This document shows, one piece after another, positions 693 through 54,544 of a stretch of DNA of 56,756 bases. Both the position numbers and the translations under genes were made by a program. The stretch's first letter is position 1; each line of letters starts with the position of its first letter. The notes beneath the pieces are model-generated. The model did no database searches, was not told the DNA's origin, and saw nothing but the letters and a program-made list of their open reading frames with translations. Source of the stretch: Alphaproteobacteria bacterium (GTDB lineage: Bacteria > Pseudomonadota > Alphaproteobacteria > VGDZ01); assembly GCA_016869515.1 (NCBI GenBank), contig VGDZ01000013.1, forward strand, positions 1 to 56,756. The letters run 5' to 3'.

Positions 693-705
693 GCGAGGCC
701 GGGCG

Positions 706-2115: not shown

Positions 2116-2140
2116 CCGTCCCGCGACGCGCGGCGTCGCG

Positions 2141-3316: not shown

Positions 3317-3329
3317 AGACGGGTCTCGG

Positions 3330-3722
3330 TCAGCGTCTCTCCTCGGCGGAAAAGTCGATTTCCAATCGCAAACGAGATGCCAAGAGACGAGGAAAACGGC
3401 GCCGCCCTTGGCCCTTCACGAAATCGACCAAGCCGGCACGCGCCATTCGTTTCAAGGTCCGCGATAAATTGGATGGTTTGCGTCCGCTGCGCCGAGCAAG
3501 CGTTGTCATGGAGTCCGGCCGCTCGTTTCCAATCAGCCGCAGTAGCCGGATGTTTTTGGCGTTCAGCAATTTGACCAGGGACTCTGCCTTGACGGGCGGT
3601 GCCGACCTTGAGGCTTTTTCCATCCAGTGCTTCGGCACACCGCGCGCAGCGCTGGCATTGCGGACGACTTGGCGGGTCCAGGATGCGAACTCGCCGATGC
3701 TGCCGGACTTTCTAGAGGTCAT
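3330..3722 (-). CDS. TumA-type antitoxin (HVO_A0114-like winged helix DNA-binding protein)
   Basis: A 130-residue protein. Residues about 50-110 form a winged helix-turn-helix: a segment reading LLRLIGNERPDSMTTLAR, followed by SGRKPSNLSRTLKRMARAGL and a basic wing. This matches the HVO_A0114 family that serves as antitoxin/regulator to TumE (DUF6516) toxins. The ATG (3720-3722) lies inside the last codons of the toxin frame, whose ancestral stop is at 3712-3714. This 11-base overlap is typical of translational coupling. The gene is intact although the toxin upstream is broken, so it is an orphan antitoxin and may still act as a repressor. Local base composition is low for this genome: 31 of 60 bases are G or C in 3421-3480, which suggests acquisition by transfer. 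The family assignment is from recalled motifs, not a search. Confidence 0.75.
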   Translation of the reverse strand: MTSRKSGSIGEFASWTRQVVRNASAARGVPKHWMEKASRSAPPVKAESLVKLLNAKNIRLLRLIGNERPDSMTTLARRSGRKPSNLSRTLKRMARAGLVDFVKGQGRRRFPRLLASRLRLEIDFSAEERR

Positions 3723-4212
3723 GCGCGATCCCTTTCAATTCCAGGGCCCGTTTCACGGCCCTCCAAAAGTCATCCAGCAACTGTGCCGGTCCCAGGGCAT
3801 GATCGATCTGTCTTGAACCATGTGGTTCAAGACAGGTCGTGAATCATGCCCTCGCGTCCCGCTCTGGACCGCGATTCACGGTTTGCATGGAATAGCGTCT
3901 GCGATTCCATGCAAACCGATCGCGGTCTTGGTATTTGTAGGGACGGCCCGGATCGGTCGCCGTGCGATGCCAATGGTCGAACGCGAGTCCGCGCTTGCCG
4001 CGCTTGGCGCCATCTGGAGCGTGGGCATTGTCGAAACGGACCAGAACATCGCCGTCGGCCTCGCGCATGACCAGGGAGTATTTGATGCCATGCGGGCGCC
4101 CAGGGAAGACGACAGCCCGCTTGACCTTGAACTCGACCACGTATCCCGACGCGGCGTCGAACCTCGCCCCATCCAAGGACAACAAGGCTTCCAACTCATG
4201 CGTGTCTGACAT
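3712..4212 (-). pseudogene. TumE-type toxin (DUF6516), interrupted by a palindromic insertion
   Basis: Translation from the ATG at 4210-4212 gives MSDTHELEALLSLDGARF and then a typical TumE core with VRFDNAH, AFDHWHR and PYKYQD. The frame then enters a double-hairpin element and stops at TGA 3844-3846, giving a 122-residue product with an aberrant tail. In the same frame, after the element, the expected C-terminal helix resumes (AQLLDDFWRAVKRALELKG, codons from 3786 downward) and ends at TAG 3712-3714, overlapping the antitoxin start. Removing about 135-138 bases restores a roughly 120-residue toxin of normal family length. The toxin is therefore probably inactive or altered. An alternative is that the truncated 122-residue form still folds. 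That the C-terminal helix belongs to the family is recalled knowledge; the shared frame and the overlap are seen directly. Confidence 0.8.
3792..3927. mobile_element. Double-hairpin palindromic element (RIME/REP-like) inserted in the toxin gene
   Basis: Two large inverted repeats stand side by side. Hairpin A (3867-3927) has a 15-bp perfect inner stem (3879-3893 with 3904-3918), a 3-base bulge (3876-3878) and a 9-bp outer stem (3867-3875 with 3919-3927), with a 10-base loop. Hairpin B (3794-3852) has a 12-bp perfect inner stem (3809-3820 with 3823-3834), a 5-bp stem with one G-T pair, a 3-base bulge (3840-3842) and a 10-bp outer stem, with a 2-base loop. The arms facing each other across the 14-base linker both contain GATTCACG, in opposite orientation. 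No ORF is carried. The design recalls rhizobial RIME/REP doublets and Rickettsia palindromic elements. That class assignment is inference. Confidence 0.75.
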
Positions 4213-21896: not shown

Positions 21897-24338
21897 GTGA
21901 GTGATCGGGCGCTGATCGCAGCCGCGGAGTTGGCCAAGGTCGGGCGGCTGGACGAGGCGGCGGCGGCGGCGCGCGATCTGGCGCGGGCCGGCGATGCGCG
22001 CGCGACCCAGCTTTGGCACCATGTCGAGACTTCGCGCGGCGACGACATGGGATCGTTGGCGGCCGCAAGCCTATGGACCGAACAGCGCCCACGGGCGGCC
22101 GAGGCCTGGTGCGCCCTGGCCGCGGCCAGGCAGGCGATCGGAGTCGATGCCGAGGTCGCGCTTGCGCGGGCGCTGGCGATCGATCCGGACTGCCGCCATG
22201 CCTTGCACATGATGGCCGATCGCCATTTCGATGCGGGTCGACCGGCCGACGCCGAACCGTTCTATCGGCGCGTCGCCGAAGCCGCCGAAGACGAACCCGC
22301 CGGACGGGCGCGGATTCGTCTGTCGCTGTGCCGCCAAGCGGCCGGGCGGCCGCAAGAGGAGCTGGCCGAACTCGATCACGCCATGCGCCTGCTCGGCAGC
22401 CATCCCGATTTGCAAGTCTCGGCCGGAATGGCGCTGACGGCCATCGGACAGCACGACATGGCCGAGGCGCGGTTTCGTGCTGCCCTCGACTCGAATCGCG
22501 ACCTGATCGAGGCGCGGGTCGGGTTGGGCATAGCGTTGGTCAATCAGGAACGTTTTGCCGCCGCTGTCCCCGAGTTGGAGCACGCACTCGAAGCCGCTCC
22601 CGGGAATCCGACCGCGCGCTACTACTTGGCGGTGGCGCTGGGCTCGATCGAGCGATACCGGGAGTCGCTCGACCAAGTTTCCGCGGTGCTGCGGGCCAAC
22701 CCGGACGACGTGCCGGCCCTGGTATGGGCCGGCCATTGCTGCCTTCAATTGAAGCGTGCCGACGAGGGAAAACGGCACTTCGGTCGGGCGCTGGAGCTGA
22801 ATCCGGAAGATCGGCCGGTCCGGCTTCGTATCGCACGGTCTTGGGAGCAAGGACAGGCTCCCGAGGAAGTGGCGGCGATCCTGGCTCCTTGGTTGGCAAG
22901 GCATCCCGACGACGACGAGGCCTTGATCGCGCTGGCCAATGCAAGGATCCAGGCCTGCGACTGGACCGACTACGAAGCGACCAAAGGAAAAATCGTCGCG
23001 GCGGTGGACCGGGTCGCCGGATTGCTGGAACGGAGTCGAATCGGATTGGCGGCGGCGATGGACATGGCCAAGCTGCTAGCGACCTATGGCGTCGATTACG
23101 GTCCGGCGATGACGCTGGCCCGCGCCTTGGCGAACGCCATCGCAGCGCCGCGCGCGGCCGATAGGGCGGCGATACGCTTCGGGTCGCGTCCGTCGGGCAA
23201 GATTCGAATCGCCTATCTGGTGGCCGCGGCGGTGTGGCACTCGACCCAGCTGGCGGTCAAGAACCTGGCCGAACGCCATGATCGGTCGCGTTTCGAGGTC
23301 GGCTGCTACGTCTTGCGGCGCAAGAAGGACCCTCATGGCGATGGGCGCTTTGCCGAGCGTTTCGCCGCGGCCTTCGACCGCTTCGCCTATCTCGACGACG
23401 TTGCCGAAGCCGAGGCGGCGGCGCGCATTCGCGGCGATGGCATCGACATCGTCGTCGAGATGCACGGGCTGCACACCGAGACCGGACTCTATCTTCTGGC
23501 CAGGCGCGTGGCGCCGATCCAGTGCCACTATTACGGCTGGGCCTATTCGACCGGGGCCGATTGGGTGGACTACTTGCTGGTCGATCGGGTCTACATGCCG
23601 CCTCGGCTCGCCGTGCAGTGCAGCGAAAAGACCGTCTACCTTCCCGACAGTTTCATGGCGCCGACCCTGGGGACGATGTCGGACAAGCCGTTGACCCGCG
23701 CCCAACTCGATCTGCCGGAAGGCGCTTTCGTGTTCTGCGACTTCAACCATCCTTGGAAGCACGAACCGGAGACGTTCGCGCAGTGGATGGCACTGCTGCG
23801 CGACGTGCCCGGTTCGGTGCTGTGGCTGGGAACGTGGCGGGGCGACGCCAAGCGCAATTTGTTGGCCGAGGCCAAGCGCGCCGGCATCGACCCGGCACGT
23901 CTGGTTTTTGCGCCCATCGCCGACCATCCCGACCATTTGCGGCGGCTAACGTTGGCCGACTTAGCGCTCGACAATCTTCATACCCAGGGCGGGGTGACGA
24001 CCCAGGACGCGCTTTACGCCGGCCTGCCGGTGCTGACGGCGGTGGGCGTGGCGAACACGCCATCGGCTCGTCTAGGCGCGTCCCTGATCTCGGCTGCGGG
24101 TCTGCCCGAACTGATCGCGGCCGGCCGGTCCGACTATGCCGCCAAGGCCCTGGCCTTGGCGCGCGATCGCGGGCGGCTGGCCGCACTGCGGCGGCGCCTG
24201 GTCGAATCTAGGGCTACGGCGCCCTTGTTCGACATCGCCGGCGCGACCCGATCGCTCGAGGCCGCCTATACGGGCATGGTCGAACGCTGGCGCGCGGGGC
24301 TGCCGCCCGAGTCCTTTGCGGTCGATCGATCGCCATGA
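21897..24338 (+). CDS. TPR-containing OGT/SPINDLY-like glycosyltransferase (GT41-type), first of tandem pair
   Basis: 813 residues starting at GTG (21897). Residues about 1-380 are tetratricopeptide-like helix pairs; about 425-800 form a GT41/OGT-like two-lobed catalytic domain. Landmarks are His448 in WHSTQL (position of the OGT catalytic-site His), the STGADWVDYLLVD strand, DFNHPWKHEPETF with Lys621 (position of the UDP-contacting Lys) and LDNLHTQGGVTTQDALYAGLPVL. In canonical OGT the last motif reads His-Thr-Thr; here Val700 replaces the His, while Thr701 and Thr702 remain. Such proteins put sugars on Ser/Thr of target proteins bound by the TPRs. Acceptor and donor are unknown. The stop overlaps the next paralogue (ATGA). 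Confidence 0.82.
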   Translation: MSDRALIAAAELAKVGRLDEAAAAARDLARAGDARATQLWHHVETSRGDDMGSLAAASLWTEQRPRAAEAWCALAAARQAIGVDAEVALARALAIDPDCRHALHMMADRHFDAGRPADAEPFYRRVAEAAEDEPAGRARIRLSLCRQAAGRPQEELAELDHAMRLLGSHPDLQVSAGMALTAIGQHDMAEARFRAALDSNRDLIEARVGLGIALVNQERFAAAVPELEHALEAAPGNPTARYYLAVALGSIERYRESLDQVSAVLRANPDDVPALVWAGHCCLQLKRADEGKRHFGRALELNPEDRPVRLRIARSWEQGQAPEEVAAILAPWLARHPDDDEALIALANARIQACDWTDYEATKGKIVAAVDRVAGLLERSRIGLAAAMDMAKLLATYGVDYGPAMTLARALANAIAAPRAADRAAIRFGSRPSGKIRIAYLVAAAVWHSTQLAVKNLAERHDRSRFEVGCYVLRRKKDPHGDGRFAERFAAAFDRFAYLDDVAEAEAAARIRGDGIDIVVEMHGLHTETGLYLLARRVAPIQCHYYGWAYSTGADWVDYLLVDRVYMPPRLAVQCSEKTVYLPDSFMAPTLGTMSDKPLTRAQLDLPEGAFVFCDFNHPWKHEPETFAQWMALLRDVPGSVLWLGTWRGDAKRNLLAEAKRAGIDPARLVFAPIADHPDHLRRLTLADLALDNLHTQGGVTTQDALYAGLPVLTAVGVANTPSARLGASLISAAGLPELIAAGRSDYAAKALALARDRGRLAALRRRLVESRATAPLFDIAGATRSLEAAYTGMVERWRAGLPPESFAVDRSP

Positions 24339-26698
24339 GCGGCAGCGAACTTGTGCAGGCGGTCTCGCTGATCCGGGAGGGCGATTTCGCGCAGGCCGCC
24401 GCCCTGCTGCGCCAAGCCATCCGCGACGGCGGGATCGATCCACGCGTCGCCGGATTGCTGTACGGGCTGGAACGGCAGCGCGGCGATACCGAAGCGGCGC
24501 GCGCGGCTGCGGCGCGCTGGACCGACCTGGCGCCGGCCTCGGCCGAGGCTTGGACCGAGCGCGGAACAATTGAATCGATCGCGGGCGGAGACGCCGAGAC
24601 CTGCTGGCGCAAGGCGCTGGCGTTGGAGCCTGACCGGCGCGACGCCGCCCTGGGCCTTGGTCTTCGGTTGCAGGCGCGCGGCGAGCATGAGGCCGCGCTG
24701 GCGCTGTGGGCCAAACTGGAACCCGAAGCGGCGCTGGCGGTATCGGCAGGGTATTCGCTGCTGGCGCTCGGCCGTTCGGTCGAGGCCGAAGCCGAATTCC
24801 GCCGCGGGCAAAAGCTGGGCGCCGACGATGAGGTGGCGTGGCTCGGCCTCGGCATCGCGCTCGCCAATCAGCGCCGCGGCCACCAGGCCCTCGAGGCCTT
24901 GGCCCGGGCGTTGGCGCGCGAGCCGAAAAACGACTCCGCTCTCTACTACCAGTCGGTCGCTTACGATCAGATCGGGCAAGTCGAGCAGGCCCTGGCTTCG
25001 GCCGAGGCCACGATCGCCGCCAATCCCAGGCACTTCGCGGCGATGGTATGGGCCGGGCATTGCTGCCTTCACCTCGGTCGCCAAGCGGAGGCCGAGGTAC
25101 ATTTCCGGCACGCAACCGAAGGCCGTCCCTATGACCGCGCCGTGCAGCTAAGCATCGCCCAGGCCTGGGATCACGGACAGGACGCCTCGCGGGTGTTGGA
25201 GGCCCTGGCACCCGTCCTTGCCGCCGATCCGAACGATCATGCCGCGTTGATTTCGGCCAGCGAGGCCTGCGTGCGCGGCTGCCAATTCGCGCAATACGAA
25301 GCGATGCGCACGCGGCTGATCGAGGGCGTTCCGGGCATGGCCGAAGCGGTGCGCTTGGGCGCGCTCGGCTTGAACAACGCGATGGACGGCTTGACCCAAT
25401 TGGTCAGTTTCGGTGCGCCCTATGGCGCCCTGGTCGGTCTGGCGACGGCGATTTCCGAACGCATCGGCCGGCCCGGCGCCGAAGATCGCGCCGCGCATCG
25501 CCAATTTGCGGTCCACGGCCGCGGGCGCATCCGTATTGCCTACATCTCCGCGACCGCGACATTCCATTCCACGCAGCTCTTGGTGCGCAACCTTGCTCGA
25601 CGGCATGACCGGGAGCGGTTCGAGGTCTATGGCTATGCCGTGCATCGCCGGCCCGATCTTTATGGCGACGGGCGATTTGCGGAAACCTTCGCGGCCGCGT
25701 TCGACCGCTTTCGGTTCTTGGACGATCTCGACGAGATCGCGGCGGCAGAAAGCATCCGTCGGGACGGCATCGATATCGCCATCGAAATGCAAGGCCTGCA
25801 CGCGGAGACCGGCATGCATTTGCTGGCGCGTCGCGTGGCGCCGGTACAATGCCATTATGCCGGTTACTGCATTTCGACCGGCGCGGATTACGTCGATTAT
25901 CTGCTGCTCGACGATGTCTTCATGCCGCCTCGCCATGCGCGCCTTTGCCGGGAGCATGTCGTGCTGCTGCCGGACTGCTTCGCCGCCGCCAGTGCCGGGG
26001 CAATCGATCCCTCGCCGGTGATGCGGCCCGATTTTGGCCTGCCCGAGGACGGCTTCGTATTTGCGGCTTTCAATCATCCTTGGAAGCTCGATCCCGAGAC
26101 GTTCGATCTGTGGATGTCGTTGCTGGTCGAACTGCCCGGATCGGTGTTGTGGCTGGGGGCGTGGCGCAAGGACGCGATCGCGGCGATGGCGCGCGAGGCC
26201 GAAGCCCGTGGTGTCGACCGCCGGCGGCTGGTGGTGGCGAAACTCGCTACCCATCACGGCCATCTCCGGCGGCTGTCGCTGGCCGATTTGGCGCTCGACA
26301 CGGGGTATACCCAGGGCGGCGTCACCACCATGGATGCGCTTTGGGCCGGGCTGCCGGTTCTGACCGCGATCGATCTGGCCGACTCGCCGCACGCCCGTTA
26401 TGGCGCCTCGATCCTGCGTGCGGCCGAATTGGGCGAGCTGGTGGCGGCGGACCGCGGCGACTATCGGCGGATTGCGCTCGAGCTGGCGCGAAATCCCGGC
26501 CGAATGGCCGAGTTGCGGGGGCGCCTGCAGGCAAGGCGGGGCCTGGCGCCTCTGTTCGACCTGGAGCGTTCGGCCCGGCACCTCGAGCAGGCCTATTCAC
26601 GAATGGTTGAACGCTGGCGGGAAGGCAAGGCGCCGCAAGGCTTTGCGGTCGAACCGCTGCCGCCGCGCACGGCCTCATGGAGCGATCCCGCGGACTAA
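24335..26698 (+). CDS. TPR-containing OGT/SPINDLY-like glycosyltransferase (GT41-type), second of tandem pair
   Basis: 787 residues, a paralogue of the preceding protein and translationally coupled to it by a 4-base overlap. TPR-like repeats occupy about 1-365. The catalytic domain has His411 (FHSTQL), the STGADYVDYLLLDDVFMPPR segment, FNHPWKLDPETF with Lys584, and TQGGVTTMDALWAGLPVLTA with Val663 in place of the OGT His. The two C-terminal halves are very alike while the TPR halves diverge, suggesting duplication followed by change in the target-binding part. pgm follows after a 37-base gap that contains its own promoter-like sequence. Confidence 0.82.
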   Translation: MSGSELVQAVSLIREGDFAQAAALLRQAIRDGGIDPRVAGLLYGLERQRGDTEAARAAAARWTDLAPASAEAWTERGTIESIAGGDAETCWRKALALEPDRRDAALGLGLRLQARGEHEAALALWAKLEPEAALAVSAGYSLLALGRSVEAEAEFRRGQKLGADDEVAWLGLGIALANQRRGHQALEALARALAREPKNDSALYYQSVAYDQIGQVEQALASAEATIAANPRHFAAMVWAGHCCLHLGRQAEAEVHFRHATEGRPYDRAVQLSIAQAWDHGQDASRVLEALAPVLAADPNDHAALISASEACVRGCQFAQYEAMRTRLIEGVPGMAEAVRLGALGLNNAMDGLTQLVSFGAPYGALVGLATAISERIGRPGAEDRAAHRQFAVHGRGRIRIAYISATATFHSTQLLVRNLARRHDRERFEVYGYAVHRRPDLYGDGRFAETFAAAFDRFRFLDDLDEIAAAESIRRDGIDIAIEMQGLHAETGMHLLARRVAPVQCHYAGYCISTGADYVDYLLLDDVFMPPRHARLCREHVVLLPDCFAAASAGAIDPSPVMRPDFGLPEDGFVFAAFNHPWKLDPETFDLWMSLLVELPGSVLWLGAWRKDAIAAMAREAEARGVDRRRLVVAKLATHHGHLRRLSLADLALDTGYTQGGVTTMDALWAGLPVLTAIDLADSPHARYGASILRAAELGELVAADRGDYRRIALELARNPGRMAELRGRLQARRGLAPLFDLERSARHLEQAYSRMVERWREGKAPQGFAVEPLPPRTASWSDPAD

Positions 26699-26726
26699 TT
26701 GCGCCCCATCGCCGTTCCCCTATAGT
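26699..26726 (+). promoter_or_regulatory. Candidate promoter of pgm-pgi
   Basis: TTGCGC (26699-26704), a 16-base spacer and TATAGT (26721-26726), ending 9 bases before the pgm ATG. If used, the mRNA would be leaderless or nearly so. The first ten bases match the atp candidate promoter (ATTGCGCCCC). Confidence 0.45.
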
Positions 26727-26735
26727 GCGCCCGCC

Positions 26736-28376
26736 ATGATCGAACGCGTCATCTCGGTTCCGGCTCAGCCGTTCCACGACCAAAGACCCGGAACTTCGGG
26801 ACTGCGCAAGCGAACCGCAATCTTCTCCCAGCCGCACTATCTCGAACTCTATCTCCAAGCGGTGATCGACGCGCTCGGCAATCTGCGCGGCAAGACCGTG
26901 GTGATCGGCGGTGACGGCCGCTACCACAACCGTCCGGCGATCGAGACCGCGATCCGCATGCTGTCCGCGGCCGAGGTCAGCCGCGTCCTGGTCGGGCGCG
27001 ACGGGTTGATGTCGACCCCGGCCTTGTCGCTGATGGTGCGGGCGAAGAACGCCTATGCCGGGCTGCTGTTCACCGCCAGCCACAATCCCGGCGGCCCGCA
27101 GGGCGATTTCGGCGTCAAGCTCAACCTCGGCAACGGCGCGCCGGCGCCGGAACGCGTGACCGAGGCGATATTTCAACACAGTCGGCGGCTGACCGGATAT
27201 CGCACGCTGGACCGCGTTGCGATCGATCTGGCCAAGCCCGGCGCGCAGCTCTGCTTCGAGACCCTGGTCGAAGTGGTCGACCCGGTGACCGACTATGCGC
27301 GGGCGATGGAGAAGCTGTTCGACTTCGCCGCGCTCGAAAAGTTGATCGGCTCGCGCGATTTCCGCTTTCGTTTCGATGCCATGAACGCCGTCACCGGGCC
27401 CTATGCCCGGGAGATCTTCGAGAACCGCCTGCGCGCGCCGGTCGGCAGCGTCGTCAACGCGGTTCCGCTGGAGGATTTCGGCGGGCTTCACCCCGATCCG
27501 GGGCCGAGCTATGCCAAGGACCTGTTCGCCGCCATGGCCGAGGATACCGGCCCCGATTTCGGCGCCGCTTCGGACGGCGATGGCGATCGGCACGTCGTAT
27601 TGGGTCGGGACCTGGCGGTGGCGCCTTCGGACAGCATCGCCATCCTGGCCGCCAATCATCAGGCCGCGCCCGGCTATGCCAAGCGGGTCAACGGCGTGGC
27701 GCGGTCGATGCCGACCAGCCGCGCGCTCGACGCCGTGGCCAAGCATTTGGGCGTGCCCTGCTACGAGACGCCGACCGGTTGGAAGTATTTCACCAGCCTG
27801 CTCGATTCCGGCCGCATCGTCCTGTGCGGCGAGGAAAGCGCCGGCGCCGGTTCCGACCATGCCCGCGAGAAGGACGGATTGTGGGCGGTGCTCTATTGGC
27901 TCAATATCCTAGCGGTACGGCGGATGTCAGTCGGCGCGCTGGTGCGGACGCATTGGCGGGCGTTCGGGCGTCATGCCTTTCAGCGTTTGGACTATGTCGG
28001 CCTGGAGGAAGACGGGGCGCGAGCCATGATGCAGGACCTGCGTGCGCGGCTGCGCGACATAGAGGGCCGGCGCGTGCATGGGCTGCTGATCGACACCGCC
28101 GACGAGTATTCCTATGTCGACCCGGTCGACGGCACCACCGCCGATCGCCAGGGCATCCGCATCGTCACCGCCGATCACGCCCGCATCGTCTATCGCCTGT
28201 CCGGCACCGGCACCAGCGGCGAGACCCTGCGGATATATGTCGAACGCCTGGTGCGGGAGGGAGACATGCTTGATGCCTCGGCCGGCAGGCTGGTCGCGGG
28301 GCTGCCGGGCGCGGCCGCGCTTCTGGCCGACATACCCCGCTATACCGGACGGAGCGCGCCCGATGTCGTCAGCTAG
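26736..28376 (+). CDS. pgm: Phosphoglucomutase (alpha-D-glucose 1,6-bisphosphate dependent)
   Basis: 546 residues, the usual length of bacterial Pgm. Interconverts glucose-1-phosphate and glucose-6-phosphate. Features in order: GTSGLRKRT near the N-terminus, the phosphoserine loop TASHNPGG, the metal loop SDGDGDRHV, the sugar-binding GEESAGAG motif and the C-terminal phosphate-binding RLSGTGTSGETLR. The ATG at 26736 fits the family start, and the longer open frame is shadow. It overlaps pgi by 14 bases, so the two sugar-phosphate enzymes are coupled; together they link fructose-6-phosphate to glucose-1-phosphate and nucleotide sugars or glycogen. Confidence 0.96.
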   Translation: MIERVISVPAQPFHDQRPGTSGLRKRTAIFSQPHYLELYLQAVIDALGNLRGKTVVIGGDGRYHNRPAIETAIRMLSAAEVSRVLVGRDGLMSTPALSLMVRAKNAYAGLLFTASHNPGGPQGDFGVKLNLGNGAPAPERVTEAIFQHSRRLTGYRTLDRVAIDLAKPGAQLCFETLVEVVDPVTDYARAMEKLFDFAALEKLIGSRDFRFRFDAMNAVTGPYAREIFENRLRAPVGSVVNAVPLEDFGGLHPDPGPSYAKDLFAAMAEDTGPDFGAASDGDGDRHVVLGRDLAVAPSDSIAILAANHQAAPGYAKRVNGVARSMPTSRALDAVAKHLGVPCYETPTGWKYFTSLLDSGRIVLCGEESAGAGSDHAREKDGLWAVLYWLNILAVRRMSVGALVRTHWRAFGRHAFQRLDYVGLEEDGARAMMQDLRARLRDIEGRRVHGLLIDTADEYSYVDPVDGTTADRQGIRIVTADHARIVYRLSGTGTSGETLRIYVERLVREGDMLDASAGRLVAGLPGAAALLADIPRYTGRSAPDVVS

Positions 28377-29940
28377 GACCCTGCCGCTGCGCGAAGTCGA
28401 GCAGTGCCGCCGGGCGCTGTCGGCGCATCGTTTGCGCATGAGCGAGACAGTCTTGCTGGATCTGTTCGCGGCCGATTCGGATCGCTTCCGGCGACTGTCC
28501 TGGCGCGCTGGGCCATTGACGCTCGATCTGTCGAAAATGCCGATGACCGACCGCACCGTCGCACTGCTGCTCGATTTGGCAGCGGCGGCTGGGATCGACC
28601 AGGCGCGGCGCGACATGTTCGAGGGCAAGGCGGTCAACGTCACCGAACGGCGCGCCGCCTGGCATGTCGCCTTGCGCGGCGGCGCCGATCGGCCGGCGCC
28701 CGAGGTCGATGCCGCGCGCGAGGCCATGCTGCGCTTCGCGGCCGGGGTGCGGGCCGACGCCAAGGTCACCGACGTGGTCCATATCGGCATCGGCGGATCG
28801 CTGCTGGGCCCGACCTTGGCGGTCGACGCGCTGACCGCCTATGCCGACGGGCCCCGCATCCATTGGCTGGGATCGGTCGACGGCGGCACGGTCGCTCAAT
28901 TGATGCGCAAGCTCGATCCGGCCCGCACGCTGGCGATCGTCGCCTCCAAGTCCTTCACCACCCAGGAGACCCTGGTCAACGCCAAGGCCATGCGCGGCTG
29001 GTTCGGCGCCGATGCCCAGAGCCGGATGGTGGCGGTGACCGCCCGGCCGGACCGCGCGCACGACGCTGGTTACGGCACGGACCGCATCCTGCCCTTCGCC
29101 GAATGGGTCGGTGGACGGTTCAGCCTGTGGTCCGCGGTCGGCGTGCCGATCGCCATTGCCATCGGTCCCGAGCGCTTCCGCGAAATGCTGACCGGTGCGG
29201 CGGCGCTGGATCGGCATTTCCGCGAAGCGCCGGCGGACAAGAACCTGCCCTTGCTGCATGGCCTGGCGTGGCTTTGGAACACGGCTTTCGGCAGCTCGGG
29301 CGCGGTGGCGGTGTTGCCCTATGACCGCCGGCTGGCGCGGCTGGTCGATCATCTTCAGCAGCTGGTGATGGAGAGCCTCGGCAAGAGCGTCGATCGCGAA
29401 GGCCACCCGGTCGAATTGCCGACCGCGCCGGTGGTCTTCGGCCAGGCCGGCACCGACGGTCAGCACGCCTTCATGCAAGTCATACACCAGGGGCCGCGCA
29501 CCATCCCGGTCGAGTTCATCGCCGCGATCACGCCCGAACACGACCTGATCGACCACCACCGCCACTTGCTGGCCAATTGCTTCGCCCAAGGCGCCGTGCT
29601 GATGCGCGGCCTGTCGGCCAGCCAGGCAATAGCCGATCTGCGGGCGCGGGGCTTCGACGAGGCCACCGCTCGCAGCCTGGTGCCGCATGTCGTCTGCCCG
29701 GGCAACCGGCCATCGAGCACGATCTTGGTCGAGCGCATCGATCCGGCCGGGCTTGGGGCGCTGATCGCGTTCTACGAGCACAGCGCGTTCGCCCAGGGCG
29801 TGGTGCTGGGCATCAATCCCTTCGATCAATGGGGAGTCGAGCGCGGCAAGCGCGTCGCCGCGGAAGTTCTGGCTGGGCACGCCTCCGACCCTTCGACCGC
29901 AGGATTGTTGGCCGCCACCGGACTCGATCGGCCGCGCTGA
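28363..29940 (+). CDS. pgi: Glucose-6-phosphate isomerase
   Basis: 525 residues. Interconverts glucose-6-phosphate and fructose-6-phosphate. It has HIGIGGSLLGP, the phosphate loop VASKSFTTQETL, signature 1 VGGRFSLWSAVG and signature 2 GINPFDQWGVERGK. In the usual motif GEPGTNGQHAF the Glu is the catalytic base; here the stretch reads FGQAGTDGQHAF, with Gln361 at that place. The helix His (DHHRHLLANCF) is kept. Either this clade uses another residue or activity is changed. The start at 28363 is inside the end of pgm. Confidence 0.93.
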   Translation: MSSARTLPLREVEQCRRALSAHRLRMSETVLLDLFAADSDRFRRLSWRAGPLTLDLSKMPMTDRTVALLLDLAAAAGIDQARRDMFEGKAVNVTERRAAWHVALRGGADRPAPEVDAAREAMLRFAAGVRADAKVTDVVHIGIGGSLLGPTLAVDALTAYADGPRIHWLGSVDGGTVAQLMRKLDPARTLAIVASKSFTTQETLVNAKAMRGWFGADAQSRMVAVTARPDRAHDAGYGTDRILPFAEWVGGRFSLWSAVGVPIAIAIGPERFREMLTGAAALDRHFREAPADKNLPLLHGLAWLWNTAFGSSGAVAVLPYDRRLARLVDHLQQLVMESLGKSVDREGHPVELPTAPVVFGQAGTDGQHAFMQVIHQGPRTIPVEFIAAITPEHDLIDHHRHLLANCFAQGAVLMRGLSASQAIADLRARGFDEATARSLVPHVVCPGNRPSSTILVERIDPAGLGALIAFYEHSAFAQGVVLGINPFDQWGVERGKRVAAEVLAGHASDPSTAGLLAATGLDRPR

Positions 29941-29986: not shown

Positions 29987-30685
29987 ATGTCTTTCGAAGC
30001 AGGCCAGAAGGCACTGAAGCGAGGCGATCATGCCGCTGCGGCGGCGGAATTCGCCGCTGCGGCCGAAGGAGGCGATGCGCAATCGCAATATTTCCTCGGC
30101 CTGCTATATGGCAATGGCGACGGTGTCCCGACCGACCTCGCCCGCGCCCGCGAGTTATTCCAGAAAGCCGCCGAAGCCGGATCGGTCGAGGCCCAATACA
30201 GCCTTGGCGTCATCTATGCCGAAGGCCGTGGCGTCAGCGCCAACAAGGCCGAGGCCGCCTATTGGTACGGCAAGGCGGCGGAGAAGGGCTACGCCCCGGC
30301 GCAGAACAATTTGGGCAGCCTGTACGAGGCCGGCGAGGGCGTGACCCGCGACTATCTCAAGGCGGTCGAGCTTTACGGGCAGGCCGCCGCTCAGGGTTTC
30401 ACCGTGGCCTATTTCAATTTGGCGCTGATGTGCGATGGCGGCATCGGCATGGAACGCGATTACGACAAGGCCGCGCAGCTTTATGGGGTTGCGGCAAAGG
30501 CGGGCCTCGACGAGGCGCAGTACAATCTCGGCCTGCTCTATTCTTCGGGGCAGGGCGTTCCGTTCGATCTCGACGCCGCCCAAATGTGGCTGGAAAAGGC
30601 CGCCAGCCAGGGGCATGGCGGGGCGGTCGAGGTGCTCAAGAAATTGCGTGCCAACATGGCGCGGCATCTGGGATCTGCCGGCTAA
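29987..30685 (+). CDS. Sel1-repeat protein
   Basis: 232 residues built of about six Sel1-like repeats of 36 residues, each with the A-x-x-x-Y-x-L-G-x-x-Y-x-x-G-x-G-V pattern (for example SQYFLGLLYGNGDGVPTDLA and AQYNLGLLYSSGQGVPFDL). No signal peptide is seen, so it is probably cytoplasmic. Sel1 proteins act as scaffolds in signalling or assembly. It sits 46 bases after pgi, with a promoter-like TTGCAG-N16-TAGGGT ahead of it, and upstream of the flagellar genes; a role with either is only a possibility. Confidence 0.88.
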   Translation: MSFEAGQKALKRGDHAAAAAEFAAAAEGGDAQSQYFLGLLYGNGDGVPTDLARARELFQKAAEAGSVEAQYSLGVIYAEGRGVSANKAEAAYWYGKAAEKGYAPAQNNLGSLYEAGEGVTRDYLKAVELYGQAAAQGFTVAYFNLALMCDGGIGMERDYDKAAQLYGVAAKAGLDEAQYNLGLLYSSGQGVPFDLDAAQMWLEKAASQGHGGAVEVLKKLRANMARHLGSAG

Positions 30686-30739
30686 GCGGAATCCTGTTAA
30701 CATATTGAATTGGTTGAATTTTGACGACTCGGTGCGGGG

Positions 30740-30755
30740 TGGCACCGGGCTTGCA
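30740..30755 (+). promoter_or_regulatory. Sigma-54-type promoter upstream of flgK
   Basis: TGGCAC-CGGGC-TTGCA has the invariant GG and GC doublets exactly ten bases apart and matches the RpoN consensus in 11 of 11 defined positions (TGGCAC and TTGCA). Transcription would begin near 30767, leaving a leader of about 190 bases before flgK. Sigma-54 control of late flagellar genes is known in Caulobacter-type hierarchies. The 271-base gap between the Sel1 gene and flgK is otherwise described by the leader ORF and hairpin entries. Confidence 0.75.
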
Positions 30756-30795
30756 GCAGTTCTGGGCAAAATCAGTCCAGGAGTTCGCAAACCCC

Positions 30796-30936
30796 ATGTC
30801 CCGGTCTCCCGATATCGACTTGAAAACCAGCCCGATCAAAGGGTTGGACGCGATGTCGCGACCCGGAAGCAAGCGGCAAGTCCTGCCTTGCATGGCGGTT
30901 TTCGGCCTTCACCCGGCAGAAATTGCCGGGGTTTGA
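30796..30936 (+). CDS. Possible 46-codon leader ORF in the flgK 5' region
   Basis: An ATG 29 bases after the predicted sigma-54 start opens a 46-residue frame (begins MSRSPDIDLKTSPIKG, ends AEIAGV) that stops 21 bases before flgK. An AGGAG lies 12 bases upstream, rather far for a ribosome site. No family is recognised. It may be a real small protein, a translated leader or chance. Confidence 0.25.
   Translation: MSRSPDIDLKTSPIKGLDAMSRPGSKRQVLPCMAVFGLHPAEIAGV
30912..30930 (+). other. Stem-loop in the flgK leader
   Basis: CCCGGCA, a GAAAT loop and TGCCGGG form a perfect 7-bp stem, followed by a G and only three T residues. It lies just ahead of the flgK ribosome-binding site (GGAGGAG, about 30945). 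It could be a weak attenuator or an mRNA-stability element; it is too T-poor for a confident terminator. Confidence 0.45.
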
Positions 30937-30957
30937 GGAGCGCGGAGGAGAGCCGCC

Positions 30958-33123
30958 ATGTCGATCAACGGAATTCTGAACACTTCGATTTCGGGCCTGC
31001 TGACCAGCCAGGAAGCCCTGCGCAACACCTCGGTCAACATCACCAACGTCAATACGCCGGGCTATGTGCGCAAGGTCATCCAGCAGCGCACCCAGGTCGT
31101 CGCCAATGGTACGGGCGGCGTCGAAATCGCCTCCATCCAGCGCAACATCGATGCCTTCCTCGAGCGCGAATCGCGCTTGGGTTCGGCCCAGGCAGAACGC
31201 TACAAGGAAATGAGCGCGCTGCACGCCGCCCTGCAGGGTTCGCTCGGCAGCCCCGATCTCGCCACCGGGCTGGGCGGACGCCTCAACGCCATCTTCACCT
31301 CGCTGTCCGATCTCGGCATCGAGCCCGACGCCGCCGTGCGGCGCTTTGCGGTGATCGACGATCTCAAGTCCTGGGGCAACGAGGTCACCCGCCTGGCGAC
31401 CGAAATTCAAAGCTATCGAGCCGACGCCGAAGCGCGCGTCGCCGACTACACGCTGACCATCAACGAGGAACTGCACAAGATCCACCAGCTGTCGCTGTCG
31501 ATCGTCCGCGCCAAGGGCAGCGGCCAGGAAACCTCCGCGATCGAGGAAGAGCGCGCCCGTTCGATCGCCGAGGTGGCCAAGTACATCGACATCCGCGTGA
31601 TCGAAAAGGACAACGGCTTCGTGACGGTCGACACCGTCTCGGGCATTACCCTGGTCGACGAGATCGAACGCAACCTGGTCTACACCCAGACCTCGACCGT
31701 CACCTCGGCCAGCCGCTTCAGCCAGATCTCGGTCAACAAAGTCAACCCGGTCAGCGGCGTCGTCGCAACGACCGGCCAGGCGCTCGATCCGGTGCTCTAC
31801 GGCGGCGCGCTGCGCGGCCTGCTCGACATGCGCGACACCGTGCTGCCCAACGCCGCAGCCCAGCTCGGCGAGTTGGCCCGGCGCGTGGTCGACAAGCTGA
31901 ACGAAGTGCACAACGACAACGTCGCCATGCCGCCGCCGACTTCGCTCGCCGGTCGCAATACCGGTCTGCTCGGTACCGGGCCGCACAACTTCACCGGCAC
32001 CGCCAATTTCACGTTGATCAACACCACCTCGGGGGCGGTGGCACGCAACGTTCAGGTCAACTTTACCGCCGGCACCTACGCGATCAACGGCGGCGCCGCG
32101 ACCGCCTTCTCGGGCACGACGCTGTCCGCGGTGGTGTCGGACATCAACACCGCGTTGGGCGCCAACGGCTCGCTGACCTTCTCGGCCGGCGTGATGACCA
32201 TGACCGGCAGCAACGGCAATGGCGCCGCCATCAGCCAGGATGCGACCACGCCGTCGAGCCGAGGCGGGCGCGGGTTTTCGCATTTCTTCGGCATGAACGA
32301 CCTGATGCAGGCCAACGTGGCGCCGCATTTCGATACCGGCGTGGCCTCGGGCGATACCCACGGCTTCACCGCCGGCGGGACGATCAGCTTCGAAGTGCGC
32401 GGACCCAACAACGAAGTGCCGAGCACCTACACCTACACCGTCGCCGCCGGCACCTATGCCAACATCGTCACCGCGCTCAACACCAACCTCGGCACCTATG
32501 CCACCTTTTCGCTGGGCACCAACGGCAACCTGGTGATGACGCCGACCAGCAGCTACTCGAAATACAAGATCCAGGTCACCAACGACACTACCGCCGCCGG
32601 CGCCACCAACGTGACGATGTCGGACTTCTTCGGCATCGGCCCAAAGTACCAGGCCAACGCCGCGCTGTCGGTCGACGTCGTCGGCCGGATCGGCGGATCC
32701 ACCACCCAGACCGGCAACAACGCGTTGCTGGCGGTCGGCAATGTGCGGTCGACCACGGTCGGCCAGACCGCGACCGGCGCCGCCGACTCGAACGGCGTCA
32801 CCGACTTCATCGCCATGTCGATCGGCACCACCAGCTTCGCCGCCGCCGGCGATCTGTCCTCGACCAGCGCGTCGCTGGCCGACTACACCGGCGCCATGCT
32901 GCAGCGCGTCGCGCTCAACGCCCAGACCGCCAAGAGCTTCCAAGAACACCGCGTCGCGCTGTTCGACGAGATCTCGGCCCGCCGTTCGGCCGCCTCGGGC
33001 GTCAACCTCGACGAGGAGCTGTCCAACATCGTCGTCTTCCAGAACGCCTACAACGCCTCCGCGCGCATGATGACCACGGCGCGCGAGATGTACGACACCC
33101 TGTTGGCCCTGACCGGCCCGTAA
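30958..33123 (+). CDS. flgK: Flagellar hook-associated protein 1 FlgK
   Basis: 721 residues. Forms the hook-filament junction with FlgL. The N-terminal rod-type motif SINGILNTSISGLLTSQEAL and the NITNVNTPGYVRKV segment, and the C-terminal NLDEELSNIVVFQNAYNASARMMTTAREM helix, are the conserved export and assembly ends of FlgK. The middle (about 340-600) is a Thr/Gly/Asn-rich, low-charge surface domain typical of outer-domain sequences. A strong GGAGGAG ribosome site precedes the ATG. flgL follows after 19 bases. Confidence 0.95.
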   Translation: MSINGILNTSISGLLTSQEALRNTSVNITNVNTPGYVRKVIQQRTQVVANGTGGVEIASIQRNIDAFLERESRLGSAQAERYKEMSALHAALQGSLGSPDLATGLGGRLNAIFTSLSDLGIEPDAAVRRFAVIDDLKSWGNEVTRLATEIQSYRADAEARVADYTLTINEELHKIHQLSLSIVRAKGSGQETSAIEEERARSIAEVAKYIDIRVIEKDNGFVTVDTVSGITLVDEIERNLVYTQTSTVTSASRFSQISVNKVNPVSGVVATTGQALDPVLYGGALRGLLDMRDTVLPNAAAQLGELARRVVDKLNEVHNDNVAMPPPTSLAGRNTGLLGTGPHNFTGTANFTLINTTSGAVARNVQVNFTAGTYAINGGAATAFSGTTLSAVVSDINTALGANGSLTFSAGVMTMTGSNGNGAAISQDATTPSSRGGRGFSHFFGMNDLMQANVAPHFDTGVASGDTHGFTAGGTISFEVRGPNNEVPSTYTYTVAAGTYANIVTALNTNLGTYATFSLGTNGNLVMTPTSSYSKYKIQVTNDTTAAGATNVTMSDFFGIGPKYQANAALSVDVVGRIGGSTTQTGNNALLAVGNVRSTTVGQTATGAADSNGVTDFIAMSIGTTSFAAAGDLSSTSASLADYTGAMLQRVALNAQTAKSFQEHRVALFDEISARRSAASGVNLDEELSNIVVFQNAYNASARMMTTAREMYDTLLALTGP

Positions 33124-33142
33124 TCGATCGGGAGTAGCCGCC

Positions 33143-34120
33143 ATGCCCTTCAGCCGCGTCTCGACGCTGTCGACCCACACCACGCTGTTGAGCGGACTGC
33201 TCAACAACCAGAACGATGTCTTCATTCGCCAGCAGCAGGTGACGACCGGTCTCAAAGCGCCCGACTTCGCCGGCATCGCCCGCGACGTCGCGCCGCTGAC
33301 TTCGGCCAAGGCCAACGCCGCCTCGATCGAGCATTACCAGCGCAACATCAACGAGCTCGACCGCCGCCTCAAGCTCTACGCCACCACCCTCGATCAGATG
33401 CGGGATATCCAGATGGAGCTGCGCACCGCGGTGATGAACGCCCGCGGCAGCCGCGACGGCAGCGGCCTGGCGGCGACGGTCGATCGCCTCTACGAGGCCT
33501 ATGCCGGCCTGCTCAACACCCAGGACAACGGGCGCTACATTTTCGGCGGCACCAAATCGACCACGGCGCCGATCTCGCAGGTCACCGCCTCGGGGTTCCA
33601 GGCGCTGGCGACCTCGGGCGGCGTGTTCGCCAACGACACCAACGCGCTCAAGATGCAGGTCGACGACACGCTCAACATCGACTTTGGCATCAACGCCTCG
33701 AGTTTCGCCACCGACACCATGGATCTGTTCCATCAGCTGATGAACTACGACGGCGGCACCGTGCCGGCCGGTCCGCCGGCGCCGCCGGCGGCTGCCTCGC
33801 CGGCCGCGGCCTTCGGCACCCCGTTGGCCGACAACCAGATCGCGTTTCTCGACCACATCCTGACCAACGTCCGTTCGCTCAACATCTTCGACGACACCGA
33901 CCAGAAGATCACCAATAACGGCCTCAACCAGCGCCGCATCACCGAAACCATGAACCGCCACGAGGCGCGATTGGTGACGATGCGGTCCTTCATCGGCAAC
34001 ATCCAGGACGTCGATGCCGCCGAAGCTGTGAGCAGGCTCAACCTCGATCAAGTGTCGCTGCAGGCCTCGATGCAGGTGATGGCGCGGGTCGGACAATTGT
34101 CGCTGCTGCAGTTCATCTGA
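33143..34120 (+). CDS. flgL: Flagellar hook-associated protein 3 FlgL
   Basis: 325 residues. Flagellin-related junction protein. The N-terminal coiled coil runs over about residues 1-140 (RVSTLSTHTTLLSGLLNNQN, the QQQVTTGLKAPDFAG motif, INELDRRLKLYATTLDQM, LLNTQDNGRYIFGGT). The C-terminal helix is RLNLDQVSLQASMQVMARVG ending LSLLQFI. A Pro/Ala stretch near 205-225 is a variable loop. Co-transcribed with flgK. Confidence 0.93.
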   Translation: MPFSRVSTLSTHTTLLSGLLNNQNDVFIRQQQVTTGLKAPDFAGIARDVAPLTSAKANAASIEHYQRNINELDRRLKLYATTLDQMRDIQMELRTAVMNARGSRDGSGLAATVDRLYEAYAGLLNTQDNGRYIFGGTKSTTAPISQVTASGFQALATSGGVFANDTNALKMQVDDTLNIDFGINASSFATDTMDLFHQLMNYDGGTVPAGPPAPPAAASPAAAFGTPLADNQIAFLDHILTNVRSLNIFDDTDQKITNNGLNQRRITETMNRHEARLVTMRSFIGNIQDVDAAEAVSRLNLDQVSLQASMQVMARVGQLSLLQFI

Positions 34121-34134
34121 TCCGCCGCAGTTAG

Positions 34135-34986
34135 GTGAGCAATCTCGCCATCGGCCTGGAGCTTCTGAAGGCGCTGTCCCCGGCCGATCCGGTTCGACCG
34201 AAACCGGCGCCGTTCGTTTGGCCGCCGCCGATGACGGCGCAACCGGGGGCGGCACGGGACGTCCTCGTCTCTCCCCGAGCTGAGGACGCCGAGTCGGCCG
34301 TGCCCGCCGACCCCGCTGGTCCGGTGCCGCTTCCGCCGGCGCCGCCACTGCCGGCCGAGAGCGAACGCAAGGAACCGTCCTGGCCGCCTGAAGTCGCATC
34401 GACCGGGCCGCGATCGCCCCTGCTGCGATCCGTGCTCAAGGGTAGCGAGAGCAAGGATCACGGCCTGCTGCCTGAACCGCCGCCAGGCCGGCCGCATTTG
34501 CCTCCGGTCTTGCGCGCGACCCTGGCCGGTAACAGCCTGCGCGCCGTGCCCAGCCTGGTGGAGGCCTGGTCGCAAGCCGTGGCCGGCGGCATGCAGGCGG
34601 TCGCGGCGTACGAAAAAGGCAAGGCCACGTCGGAAGCGAGCGACAGCGGATGGCTGCCGCCGGCGTCCTTGTCGACACCCGCCTCGGCCAACATCCTGCC
34701 GGCGCTCAAACCGCCTGGTCCGATTCGTGACACGTCGGCCATCGAGGCATCGATCGCGGCATCTCAAGCATCGGTGTCGCTGGTCGCATGCACAAGCGTT
34801 CCGGTGCCGCCCGAAGCTGCATGTCCGCTCGCGGTCGAAGCCTCGCCGAGAGCGTGCAATTCGAGCCTGCCGCCCTTGCTTCAAGTCCTGTTGGCCGGCA
34901 CCGCCCAACAGCCGCGGCGCGAGCCCGCGATCGTCAAACGACCTGCCGAAAAGCGACTGGACGATCGACGCAACCGCCGGCGCTGA
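34135..34986 (+). CDS. Proline-rich protein of unknown function, downstream of flgL
   Basis: 283 residues from a GTG start 14 bases after flgL. The sequence is rich in Pro, Ala and Ser (for example PLPPAPPLPAE) and looks intrinsically disordered, apart from a possible helical part at about 110-165 (PPVLRATLAGNSLRAVPSLV and AWSQAVAGGMQAVAAYEKGK). The C-terminus is highly basic (KRPAEKRLDDRRNRRR). No signal peptide and no family is recognised. Spacing and strand suggest it belongs to the flgKL transcript. The disordered, Pro-rich build faintly recalls FliK-type hook-length proteins or export substrates, but nothing diagnostic is seen. It is convergent with the M81 gene (3-base gap). Confidence 0.6.
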   Translation: MSNLAIGLELLKALSPADPVRPKPAPFVWPPPMTAQPGAARDVLVSPRAEDAESAVPADPAGPVPLPPAPPLPAESERKEPSWPPEVASTGPRSPLLRSVLKGSESKDHGLLPEPPPGRPHLPPVLRATLAGNSLRAVPSLVEAWSQAVAGGMQAVAAYEKGKATSEASDSGWLPPASLSTPASANILPALKPPGPIRDTSAIEASIAASQASVSLVACTSVPVPPEAACPLAVEASPRACNSSLPPLLQVLLAGTAQQPRREPAIVKRPAEKRLDDRRNRRR

Positions 34987-52381: not shown

Positions 52382-54544
52382 ATGCGCCAGGCGGTGGAAC
52401 GCGCTTTGGCCTTGCATCGCGCGGGGTCCTTGGCCGAGGCCGAGGCCGGCTATCGGGCGGCGGTCGAGCGCTGGCCCGACAGCGCCGATGGCTGGCAATT
52501 GCTTGGCGTCTTGCTGTTGCAGCGCGGCGATCCCGCTGCCGCGGTCGCGGCACTCGATCGAGCGATCGGCCTGCGCGGCGACCAGCCGGGCTGGCATCTC
52601 AATCGCGGCGAGGCGCTGCGCAGGCTCGGGCGCCTAGCCGAGTCCGAAGCCGCATTCCGTCGGGTCTTGGTCCTGCGGCCAGACCACGTCGATGCGGCGA
52701 TCAATCTTGGCCTGACCTTGCATCAGGCGGGGCGGTTCGAGGACTCGCTGGCGGTACTCGAGCCGCTGCGTGCCCGGCGTCCCGGCCAGATCGAGGTGCT
52801 GCAGCCGCTGGCCGGTTCGCTGCTCAATCTGCGCCGCGGTCCGGAAGCGGTGGCGCTGTTCCGCGAGGCGGCGGCGTTGGCGCCCAACGACGCCCGCGTC
52901 CTGTCCAATCTCGGCAATGCGTTGACCATGACCGGTCAAGCGGCCGAGGCCGAGACCGTGCTCAAGCGCGCCGTGAGCTTCGATCCGCGCCTGGTGCCGG
53001 CGTGGTGCAATCTCGGCAATGCGCTGCGTTCGCAGGGGCTTTCGGCCGAGGCGATCGAGGCCTTCCGCAAGGCGCTGGCCCTGGTGCCGGCATTCTTCGA
53101 GGCCTGGCTCAATCTCGGCACCGCCTATCAGGATCAGGGCGATTTGCCGGCTGCGGTCGAGGCCGCCGAGAAAGCGATTGCGCTTCGCCCCGAGGCGACG
53201 GCGGCGTGGAACAATCTCGGCAGCGCAAAGCAGGATCTGGGCGATCTTGACGGCGCCACCGCGGCGTTCCGCAAGGTGCTGGAGCGCGAACCCGACAACG
53301 CCATTGCCCACACCAATCTGATCTTCACCCTCGACTTCGATCCGCGCCGCGACGCCGAGGCCTTGCAAGCGGAGCGGAAGGCCTTTGACCGGGCCCATTG
53401 CGCGCGGTTCGCTTCCGCCATCGCCCCGCACGACAACGCTCGCGATCCCGAGCGCAAGCTGCGGATCGGCTATGTCTCTCCCTTCTTCCGGCGCCATTCG
53501 TCGGCGCTGGCTTTTGCGCCGGTGATCTTCGCCGCCGATCGCTCCCGCTACGAGACCGTGTGCTATTCCGGCACCGTGGTCGAGGACGCCATGACCCAGC
53601 GTTTCAAAGACTGCTCGGCGCTGTGGCGCTCGACCGTGGGCGTATCGGACCAAGCCCTGGCCGATACCGTCCGCGCCGACGGAATCGACATCCTGGTCGA
53701 TTGCGTCGGCCATATGGGCGGCAATCGCCTGCCGGCGTTCGGCCGCAAGCCGGCGCCGGTGCAGATCACCGCCTGGGGCCAATGCAACGGCACCGGGCTG
53801 GCAGCGATCGATGCCCTGTTCGTCGATCCGATCCTGCTGCCGGCCGAGGAGCGGCATCACTACGCCGAGCGGGCGGTCGATTTGCCCTGCTGCATCGCCT
53901 ATCTGCCGCCGGATGACGCACCCGATCCGGTGCCGCCACCGGCGGCAAAAGAGGGCGCCATAACCTTTGGTGTGTTCAATCGCCTGTCCAAGGCGACGCC
54001 CGATGCGCTGGTGTTATGGGCCGAAGTGCTGAAGGCGGTGCCGGGCTCGCGGCTTGTGCTCAAATCGCGCGGCATGGACTCGCCGCCGATCGTGGATCGG
54101 CTGCGCGGCGTATTCGCGGGCCACGGCGTCGATCCCGACCGGCTTTCCTTCCGCGGCGATACCCCGCCGGCGGACCATCTGGCGGCGCATGGCGCGATCG
54201 ACATCGCGCTCGATCCGGTGCCGCAGGGCGGCGGCATTTCCAGCATCGATGCGCTGTGGATGGGCGTGCCGGTGGTGACGCTGATGGGGCGCTCGATCGC
54301 CGGACGGCCAACGGCGGCGATCCTGGCGACGCTGGGCCTTGGCGAATGGATCGCCAAGGACGCGGCGGGCTATGTGGCGATTGCCCGGGACTTGGCCGAG
54401 GATCGCGACCGGCTGGCAGCGCTGCGGCAATCCTTGCGGCCCCGGCTCCAGGCCCATCCGCTGTGCAATCCGCCGCTCTATGCGCGCGCGGTCGAGGCGG
54501 CCTATCGCGATCTCTGGCGCGGATGGTGCATCGGCCCGACTTAG
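52382..54544 (+). CDS. TPR + SPINDLY/OGT-like glycosyltransferase (GT41-type), third copy
   Basis: 720 residues from ATG 52382. An in-frame GTG at 52325 would overlap the gpmI stop and add 19 residues, and is also possible. About nine TPRs fill residues 1-320, including canonical units such as AWCNLGNALRSQGLSAEAIE and AWNNLGSAKQDLGDLDGATA. The catalytic part begins LRIGYVSPFFRRHSSALAF (His372) and has DILVDCVGHMGGNRLPAF, FGVFNRLSKATPDALVLW and GGGISSIDALWMGVPVVTL. The usual N-G-(H/T)-T-T reads Gly-Gly-Ile-Ser-Ser (Ile619 to Ser621). It is nearer to typical bacterial SPINDLY proteins than the tandem pair at 21897-26698. Acceptor unknown. Confidence 0.85.
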   Translation: MRQAVERALALHRAGSLAEAEAGYRAAVERWPDSADGWQLLGVLLLQRGDPAAAVAALDRAIGLRGDQPGWHLNRGEALRRLGRLAESEAAFRRVLVLRPDHVDAAINLGLTLHQAGRFEDSLAVLEPLRARRPGQIEVLQPLAGSLLNLRRGPEAVALFREAAALAPNDARVLSNLGNALTMTGQAAEAETVLKRAVSFDPRLVPAWCNLGNALRSQGLSAEAIEAFRKALALVPAFFEAWLNLGTAYQDQGDLPAAVEAAEKAIALRPEATAAWNNLGSAKQDLGDLDGATAAFRKVLEREPDNAIAHTNLIFTLDFDPRRDAEALQAERKAFDRAHCARFASAIAPHDNARDPERKLRIGYVSPFFRRHSSALAFAPVIFAADRSRYETVCYSGTVVEDAMTQRFKDCSALWRSTVGVSDQALADTVRADGIDILVDCVGHMGGNRLPAFGRKPAPVQITAWGQCNGTGLAAIDALFVDPILLPAEERHHYAERAVDLPCCIAYLPPDDAPDPVPPPAAKEGAITFGVFNRLSKATPDALVLWAEVLKAVPGSRLVLKSRGMDSPPIVDRLRGVFAGHGVDPDRLSFRGDTPPADHLAAHGAIDIALDPVPQGGGISSIDALWMGVPVVTLMGRSIAGRPTAAILATLGLGEWIAKDAAGYVAIARDLAEDRDRLAALRQSLRPRLQAHPLCNPPLYARAVEAAYRDLWRGWCIGPT

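Follow-up and report, generated by a model that had tools for sequence, protein, structure and literature searches.

The question raised by two overlapping genes in a 56,756-nucleotide contig of an alphaproteobacterial draft genome (VGDZ01000013.1 of assembly GCA_016869515.1; hereafter the window) is whether their products serve the flagellum. Both encode large proteins, P1 and P2, in which tetratricopeptide repeats (TPR) are followed by a GT41-type glycosyltransferase (GT) domain, and they precede pgm, pgi, a Sel1-repeat gene, flgK and flgL. Judging by their sequences, we hold with moderate confidence that P1 and P2 belong to a flagella-linked branch of GT41 enzymes in alphaproteobacteria and are soluble protein glycosyltransferases. 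A similar degree of confidence is given to the proposal that they glycosylate flagellar proteins ahead of export, a reading preferred because this branch repeatedly adjoins flgK and flgL. The evidence comes from the domains, the predicted fold, the conservation of catalytic residues, the clade and the gene neighbourhood.

Matches to Pfam and NCBIfam and an ATGA overlap of 4 nt between the P1 and P2 genes confirmed the gene order described in a first-pass annotation, whose range of 21897-29940 covers the GT genes, pgm and pgi but ends before sel1, flgK and flgL (29987-34120). P1 and P2 both exceed the 25-bit cut-off of PF13844 (Glyco_transf_41), and the scores of Pgm and Pgi exceed the curated NCBIfam cut-offs. 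FlgL narrowly missed that of TIGR02550 (116.7 versus 127.2); its putative assignment is based on this near miss and on its position after flgK. The closest solved relatives of P1 and P2 by sequence are human and Drosophila OGT, XcOGT, SPINDLY and the 5djs protein. The AlphaFold model of P1 (mean pLDDT 91.8) predicts a two-lobed GT-B fold joined to a TPR superhelix, and all of its listed top matches in the PDB are GT41 enzymes (OGT, XcOGT or SPINDLY). When target-normalised, XcOGT is the best match to the predicted model (TMt 0.85). The catalytic parts of P1 and P2 are 60% identical and thus as alike as had been annotated, while the difference noted between the TPR halves turned out to be one of degree only. 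With 39% identity and approximately 43 gap columns, these halves are homologous and have diverged faster than the catalytic parts. The tandem pair itself appears to have arisen by duplication within its lineage.

The phylogeny and neighbourhood of the enzymes were studied in 385 genomes of one class and in named GTDB loci, all comparison genomes lying outside the genus, family and order of the source genome. Trees were calculated from 159 (broad) and 55 (careful) GT41 catalytic domains, with support given as UFBoot/SH-aLRT. In the tree of 55, a flagella-linked clade of 43 members (96/93) comprises two sister groups. Group A (23 rows, 99/96, recovered in 100% of 200 bootstrap trees) takes in P1, P2 and their closest paralogue in the source genome, encoded on contig C17; group B contains 20 rows (96/91). 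Group A genes adjoin flgK-flgL at six loci, namely the window, L068, L069, L071, L117 and, at a distance of approximately 6 kb, L079, a share that is not an unbiased rate since group A was the query group. L069 possesses a tandem GT pair like that of the window, and the same Sel1 gene lies upstream of flgK at four of the six loci (window, L068, L069 and L117). In genome G358, a group A gene and flgK-flgL are 22 kb apart. Group B genes, on the other hand, are neighbours of flagellin-flbT-flaF; in the source genome, a tandem pair of them is found there on contig C117. Both groups occur together in the source genome, G001, G159, G358, G186, G280 and G077, among others. Among the GT41 matches listed for genomes with a listed flgK, a match within 25 kb of flgK was found in 12 genomes (window included), compared to at most 1.15 expected. 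The flagellar link of this GT41 branch is real and repeatedly conserved. At the level of the branch, the flagellar association suggested by the annotation therefore stands, since members of the clade are repeatedly accompanied by flgK-flgL and nucleotide-sugar genes; the lack of any such conserved neighbourhood, named there as the outcome that would speak against it, was not what the survey revealed.

The active site connects P1 and P2 to known protein glycosyltransferases and at the same time separates them from these enzymes. With human and Drosophila OGT and with XcOGT they share the TPR solenoid, the two-lobed GT41 domain and the equivalents of H558, K842 and H901. With the protein O-fucosyltransferase SPINDLY they have in common the His-Ser pair H495-S496 as well as N661, K665 and H728 (H495, K665 and H728 aligning with the three OGT residues). 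All of these are residues required in SPINDLY or OGT (SPINDLY data from PMC9715652), the Lys (K842/K665) and the His (H558/H495) being essential. By contrast, the donor-sugar position (OGT C917, SPINDLY Y744) is a Thr in P1 and P2. The same position is a His in 40 of the 43 members of the flagellar clade, that is in the other 20 of the 23 group A rows and throughout group B, and a Ser in the C17 paralogue. Y744 is needed for fucose transfer by SPINDLY, and T748, likewise a fucose-transfer residue, is replaced by Val. Of the further OGT donor-site residues, H920 is changed to Gly and T921 to Val. At the position of D554, P1 and P2 have Ala or Thr, most of group A has Tyr and group B has Asp. 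Because the donor position is altered, neither UDP-GlcNAc nor GDP-fucose should be assumed to be the donor. The asparagine ladder in the TPRs of OGT was not detected in P1 and P2, a weak negative since few repeats were scored.

Genes that may provide the donor were found elsewhere in the genome. Next to the gene of the C17 paralogue lie five nucleotide-sugar genes (heptose-kinase-like, nucleotidyltransferase, Fcl-like, short-chain dehydrogenase/reductase and aminotransferase), and four of them show 45-72% identity to a cluster in G095 situated beside flagellin-flbT-flaF-flgK-flgL. The G095 cluster is located at L260 (G095:C22:168000-185000), positions 2-3768. Related GHMP kinases are present at L117 and L074. 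As the four C17 genes score below the curated cut-offs, the exact sugar is not fixed by them.

From these data we infer a protein acceptor, a flagellar target and an order of events for P1 and P2. In the cytoplasm, the N-terminal TPR solenoid would dock on a flagellar axial subunit that is unfolded or partly helical, with FlgK and FlgL of the hook-filament junction, or flagellin, as the most likely candidates. The C-terminal GT-B domain would then transfer a sugar from a nucleotide donor to Ser or Thr, and the modified subunit would be exported by the flagellar type III apparatus. P1 and P2 would probably split the work, by acting on different subunits or sites or by adding successive sugars. 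A more specific proposal, which we regard as speculative and rather doubtful, is that many alphaproteobacteria maintain both paralogue groups, of ancient origin, for a single flagellum, using group B for flagellin and reserving group A for FlgK and FlgL, with an altered donor pocket (His at the sugar-selecting position, or Thr in the lineage of the window) that accepts a sugar new to GT41. If this were true, group A would be the first group of enzymes devoted specifically to the proteins of the hook-filament junction.

Several observations weigh against a flagellar role of P1 and P2. For 14 of the 23 rows in group A, none of the flagellar markers used is found within 10 kb; some of the contigs are short. 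The Ser/Thr content of FlgK and FlgL is no different from that in species without the GT, and Ser/Thr enrichment was dropped as a sign of modification for this reason. P1 and P2 themselves have neither the donor-position His of their clade nor the asparagine ladder, losses which indicate that their function may have drifted. Finally, pgm, pgi and sel1 separate the GT genes from flgK in the window, and flgK has its own candidate promoter; co-transcription of the GT genes with flgKL is thus not indicated. This candidate, an exact sigma54 (-24/-12) sequence, lies 218 bp upstream of flgK, and sites with one mismatch precede flgK at L068, L069, L117 and L079, the chance rate being approximately 0.02 per 350 bp. 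No sigma54 site was found upstream of any GT or sel1 gene tested. As far as the promoter sequences tell, flgKL is probably a separate sigma54-driven unit without the GTs.

The coupling of the GT pair to pgm and pgi, which the annotation had taken as part of the system, was not borne out. None of the other surveyed loci has pgm beside the GT, and pgi was encountered near a GT at one of them, 4.4 kb away. A single Pgi was found in the source genome, which is 97% complete, and Pgm is one of three phosphohexomutase matches. Since pgm-pgi adjoins the GTs only in the window and pgi is a single copy, both genes fall outside the conserved setting and are probably best read as housekeeping genes, lined up with the GTs in the lineage of the window. 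The short same-strand gaps across P2-pgm-pgi-sel1 (38-62 bp) might also suggest a carbohydrate-metabolism operon for a storage or surface polysaccharide. We regard this as improbable, not only in view of the missing conservation and the single pgi but also because the closest families of known function are protein glycosyltransferases.

Two other explanations concern the target. The first is that P1 and P2 modify flagellin only, as group B and FlmG may do, so that their proximity to flgK-flgL merely reflects the clustering of flagellar genes. It is a possible, albeit somewhat unlikely, explanation: group B sits at flagellin genes, several flagellin genes are present on other contigs of the source genome, and flagellin is the substrate of the known flagellar GTs (PMC7591256; PMC4481668). 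However, groups A and B are separate sisters with different neighbours that coexist in the same genomes, and the source genome already possesses a group B pair at flaF-flbT in addition to an FlmG-like protein. Alternatively, P1 and P2 could modify a glycan, or proteins of the cytoplasm or the surface other than those of the flagellum, their position near flgKL being incidental in this genome. Eleven GT41 proteins are encoded in the draft genome, most of them away from flagellar genes, and the divergence at the donor site and in the asparagine ladder, as well as the arrangement in line with pgm-pgi, would fit such a role. We nevertheless judge it unlikely, since the same clade is repeatedly linked to flgKL in unrelated genomes.

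The annotation had pointed to FlmG of Caulobacter, in which a TPR half binding the flagellins is combined with a GT-B half (PMC7591256). P1 and P2 resemble FlmG in this plan, in their flagellar gene setting and in their likely cytoplasmic action, and the source genome encodes two NeuB synthases, so that they might be orthologues of FlmG using pseudaminic acid. This is very improbable, and FlmG orthology was rejected. TPR proteins of 570-621 aa occupy the flbT-flaF slot in eight genomes of seven families; by length, domain plan and this position they are taken to be FlmG orthologues, the sequence of FlmG itself not having been compared. None of the seven of these proteins scanned with Pfam contained PF13844, while one gave a weak match to Glyco_transf_9, and their profile aligns with GT41 proteins, P1 and P2 included, essentially only over the TPRs. 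Moreover, the C-terminal part of FlmG comprises 283 aa (596 minus 313, PMC7591256), which is shorter than the GT41 catalytic domain (approximately 365-380 aa), and a separate FlmG-like protein is encoded on contig C4 of the source genome. The catalytic-domain phylogeny proposed in the annotation placed P1 and P2 in a flagella-linked GT41 clade, but the profile comparison did not bear out a relation to FlmG; the FlmG-like proteins carry a different, GT9-like C-terminal domain, and FlmG is probably an analogue of the pair rather than an orthologue. FlmG and the window pair probably represent a like design realised with different glycosyltransferase families. Their positions differ as well, the window pair lying by flgK-flgL and not by flagellin-flaF-flbT, where the GT41 pair of C117 is found.

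The gene divergent from flbT-flaF is FlmG-like (GT9-like) at L246-L249, L251, L252, L258 and L264, while it encodes a GT41 TPR protein at L253, L254 and L143, in other families. From this distribution, one flagellar slot seems to have recruited two types of TPR-glycosyltransferase, GT41 and FlmG-like GT9, that are unrelated to each other. Contig C4 (L214, L215 and L266) harbors two NeuB-type nonulosonate synthases and two GT41 proteins besides the FlmG-like protein, its NeuB region having been covered in pieces of 3-4 kb. At L137 and L145 (G193 and G286), arrays of approximately seven flagellin genes, with several flaF paralogues in between, have three group B GT41 genes at their flanks.

GT41 enzymes in a flagellar context are not without precedent. 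Flagellin glycosylation islands encoding them have been described in Enterobacteriaceae, where they sit between fliC and fliA/flgL (PMC4875605); as far as the description allows a comparison, they share with P1 and P2 a GT41 domain coded among flagellar genes. In Plesiomonas shigelloides, the gene for a glycosyltransferase (Gt, 691 aa) lies directly beside flgL-flgK and near nonulosonate (legionaminic acid) genes, and the flagellins carry legionaminic acid according to mass spectrometry, although the role of this GT was not tested (PMC4481668). Its family is not named in that report, and it is likened to P1 and P2 by description only. No paper on glycosylation of FlgK or FlgL by a dedicated enzyme was found in the open-access literature. 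The literature thus already covers both GT41 enzymes in flagellin islands and a GT gene next to flgL-flgK, while a dedicated flgKL-linked paralogue group is new. The OGT/SPINDLY family thereby gains a bacterial branch that is linked to flagella and has a distinctive active site. Should the substrates be confirmed, the paralogue pairs would offer a clean natural system for studying how an OGT-like enzyme is directed to its target by its TPR domains, which has long been a question for human OGT too.

Table. Features of the window at and around the glycosyltransferase locus.
Feature	Coordinates	Strand	Basis and remarks
P1, TPR + GT41 glycosyltransferase, group A	21897..24338	+	813 aa; PF13844 3.7e-65, 220.6 bits
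P2, TPR + GT41 glycosyltransferase, group A, sister of P1	24335..26698	+	787 aa; PF13844 9.8e-58, 196.1 bits
pgm, alpha-D-glucose phosphate-specific phosphoglucomutase, probably housekeeping	26736..28376	+	NF005737 765 bits
pgi, glucose-6-phosphate isomerase	28438..29940	+	NF001211 595 bits
sel1, Sel1-repeat protein gene	29987..30685	+	PF08238 5.5e-46, exceeds cut-off
Candidate sigma54 (-24/-12) promoter of flgK	30740..30754	+	TGGCAC-N5-TTGC, exact consensus
flgK, hook-associated protein 1	30958..33123	+	TIGR02492 237 bits, exceeds cut-off
flgL, putative hook-associated protein 3	33143..34120	+	TIGR02550 1.5e-33; Flagellin_C match; directly 3' of flgK
P3, third GT41 + TPR protein, SPINDLY-like, other clade	52382..54544	+	3' of gpmI; outside flagellar group

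Directly 3' of flgL, a proline-rich open reading frame of 283 aa (34135-34986) gave no match in Pfam or NCBIfam; similar-looking reading frames follow flgL at L259 and L260. P3, which the annotation had not reported, is encoded directly 3' of gpmI (50808-52328). It has kept the asparagine ladder, and its clade also takes in five other proteins of the source genome.

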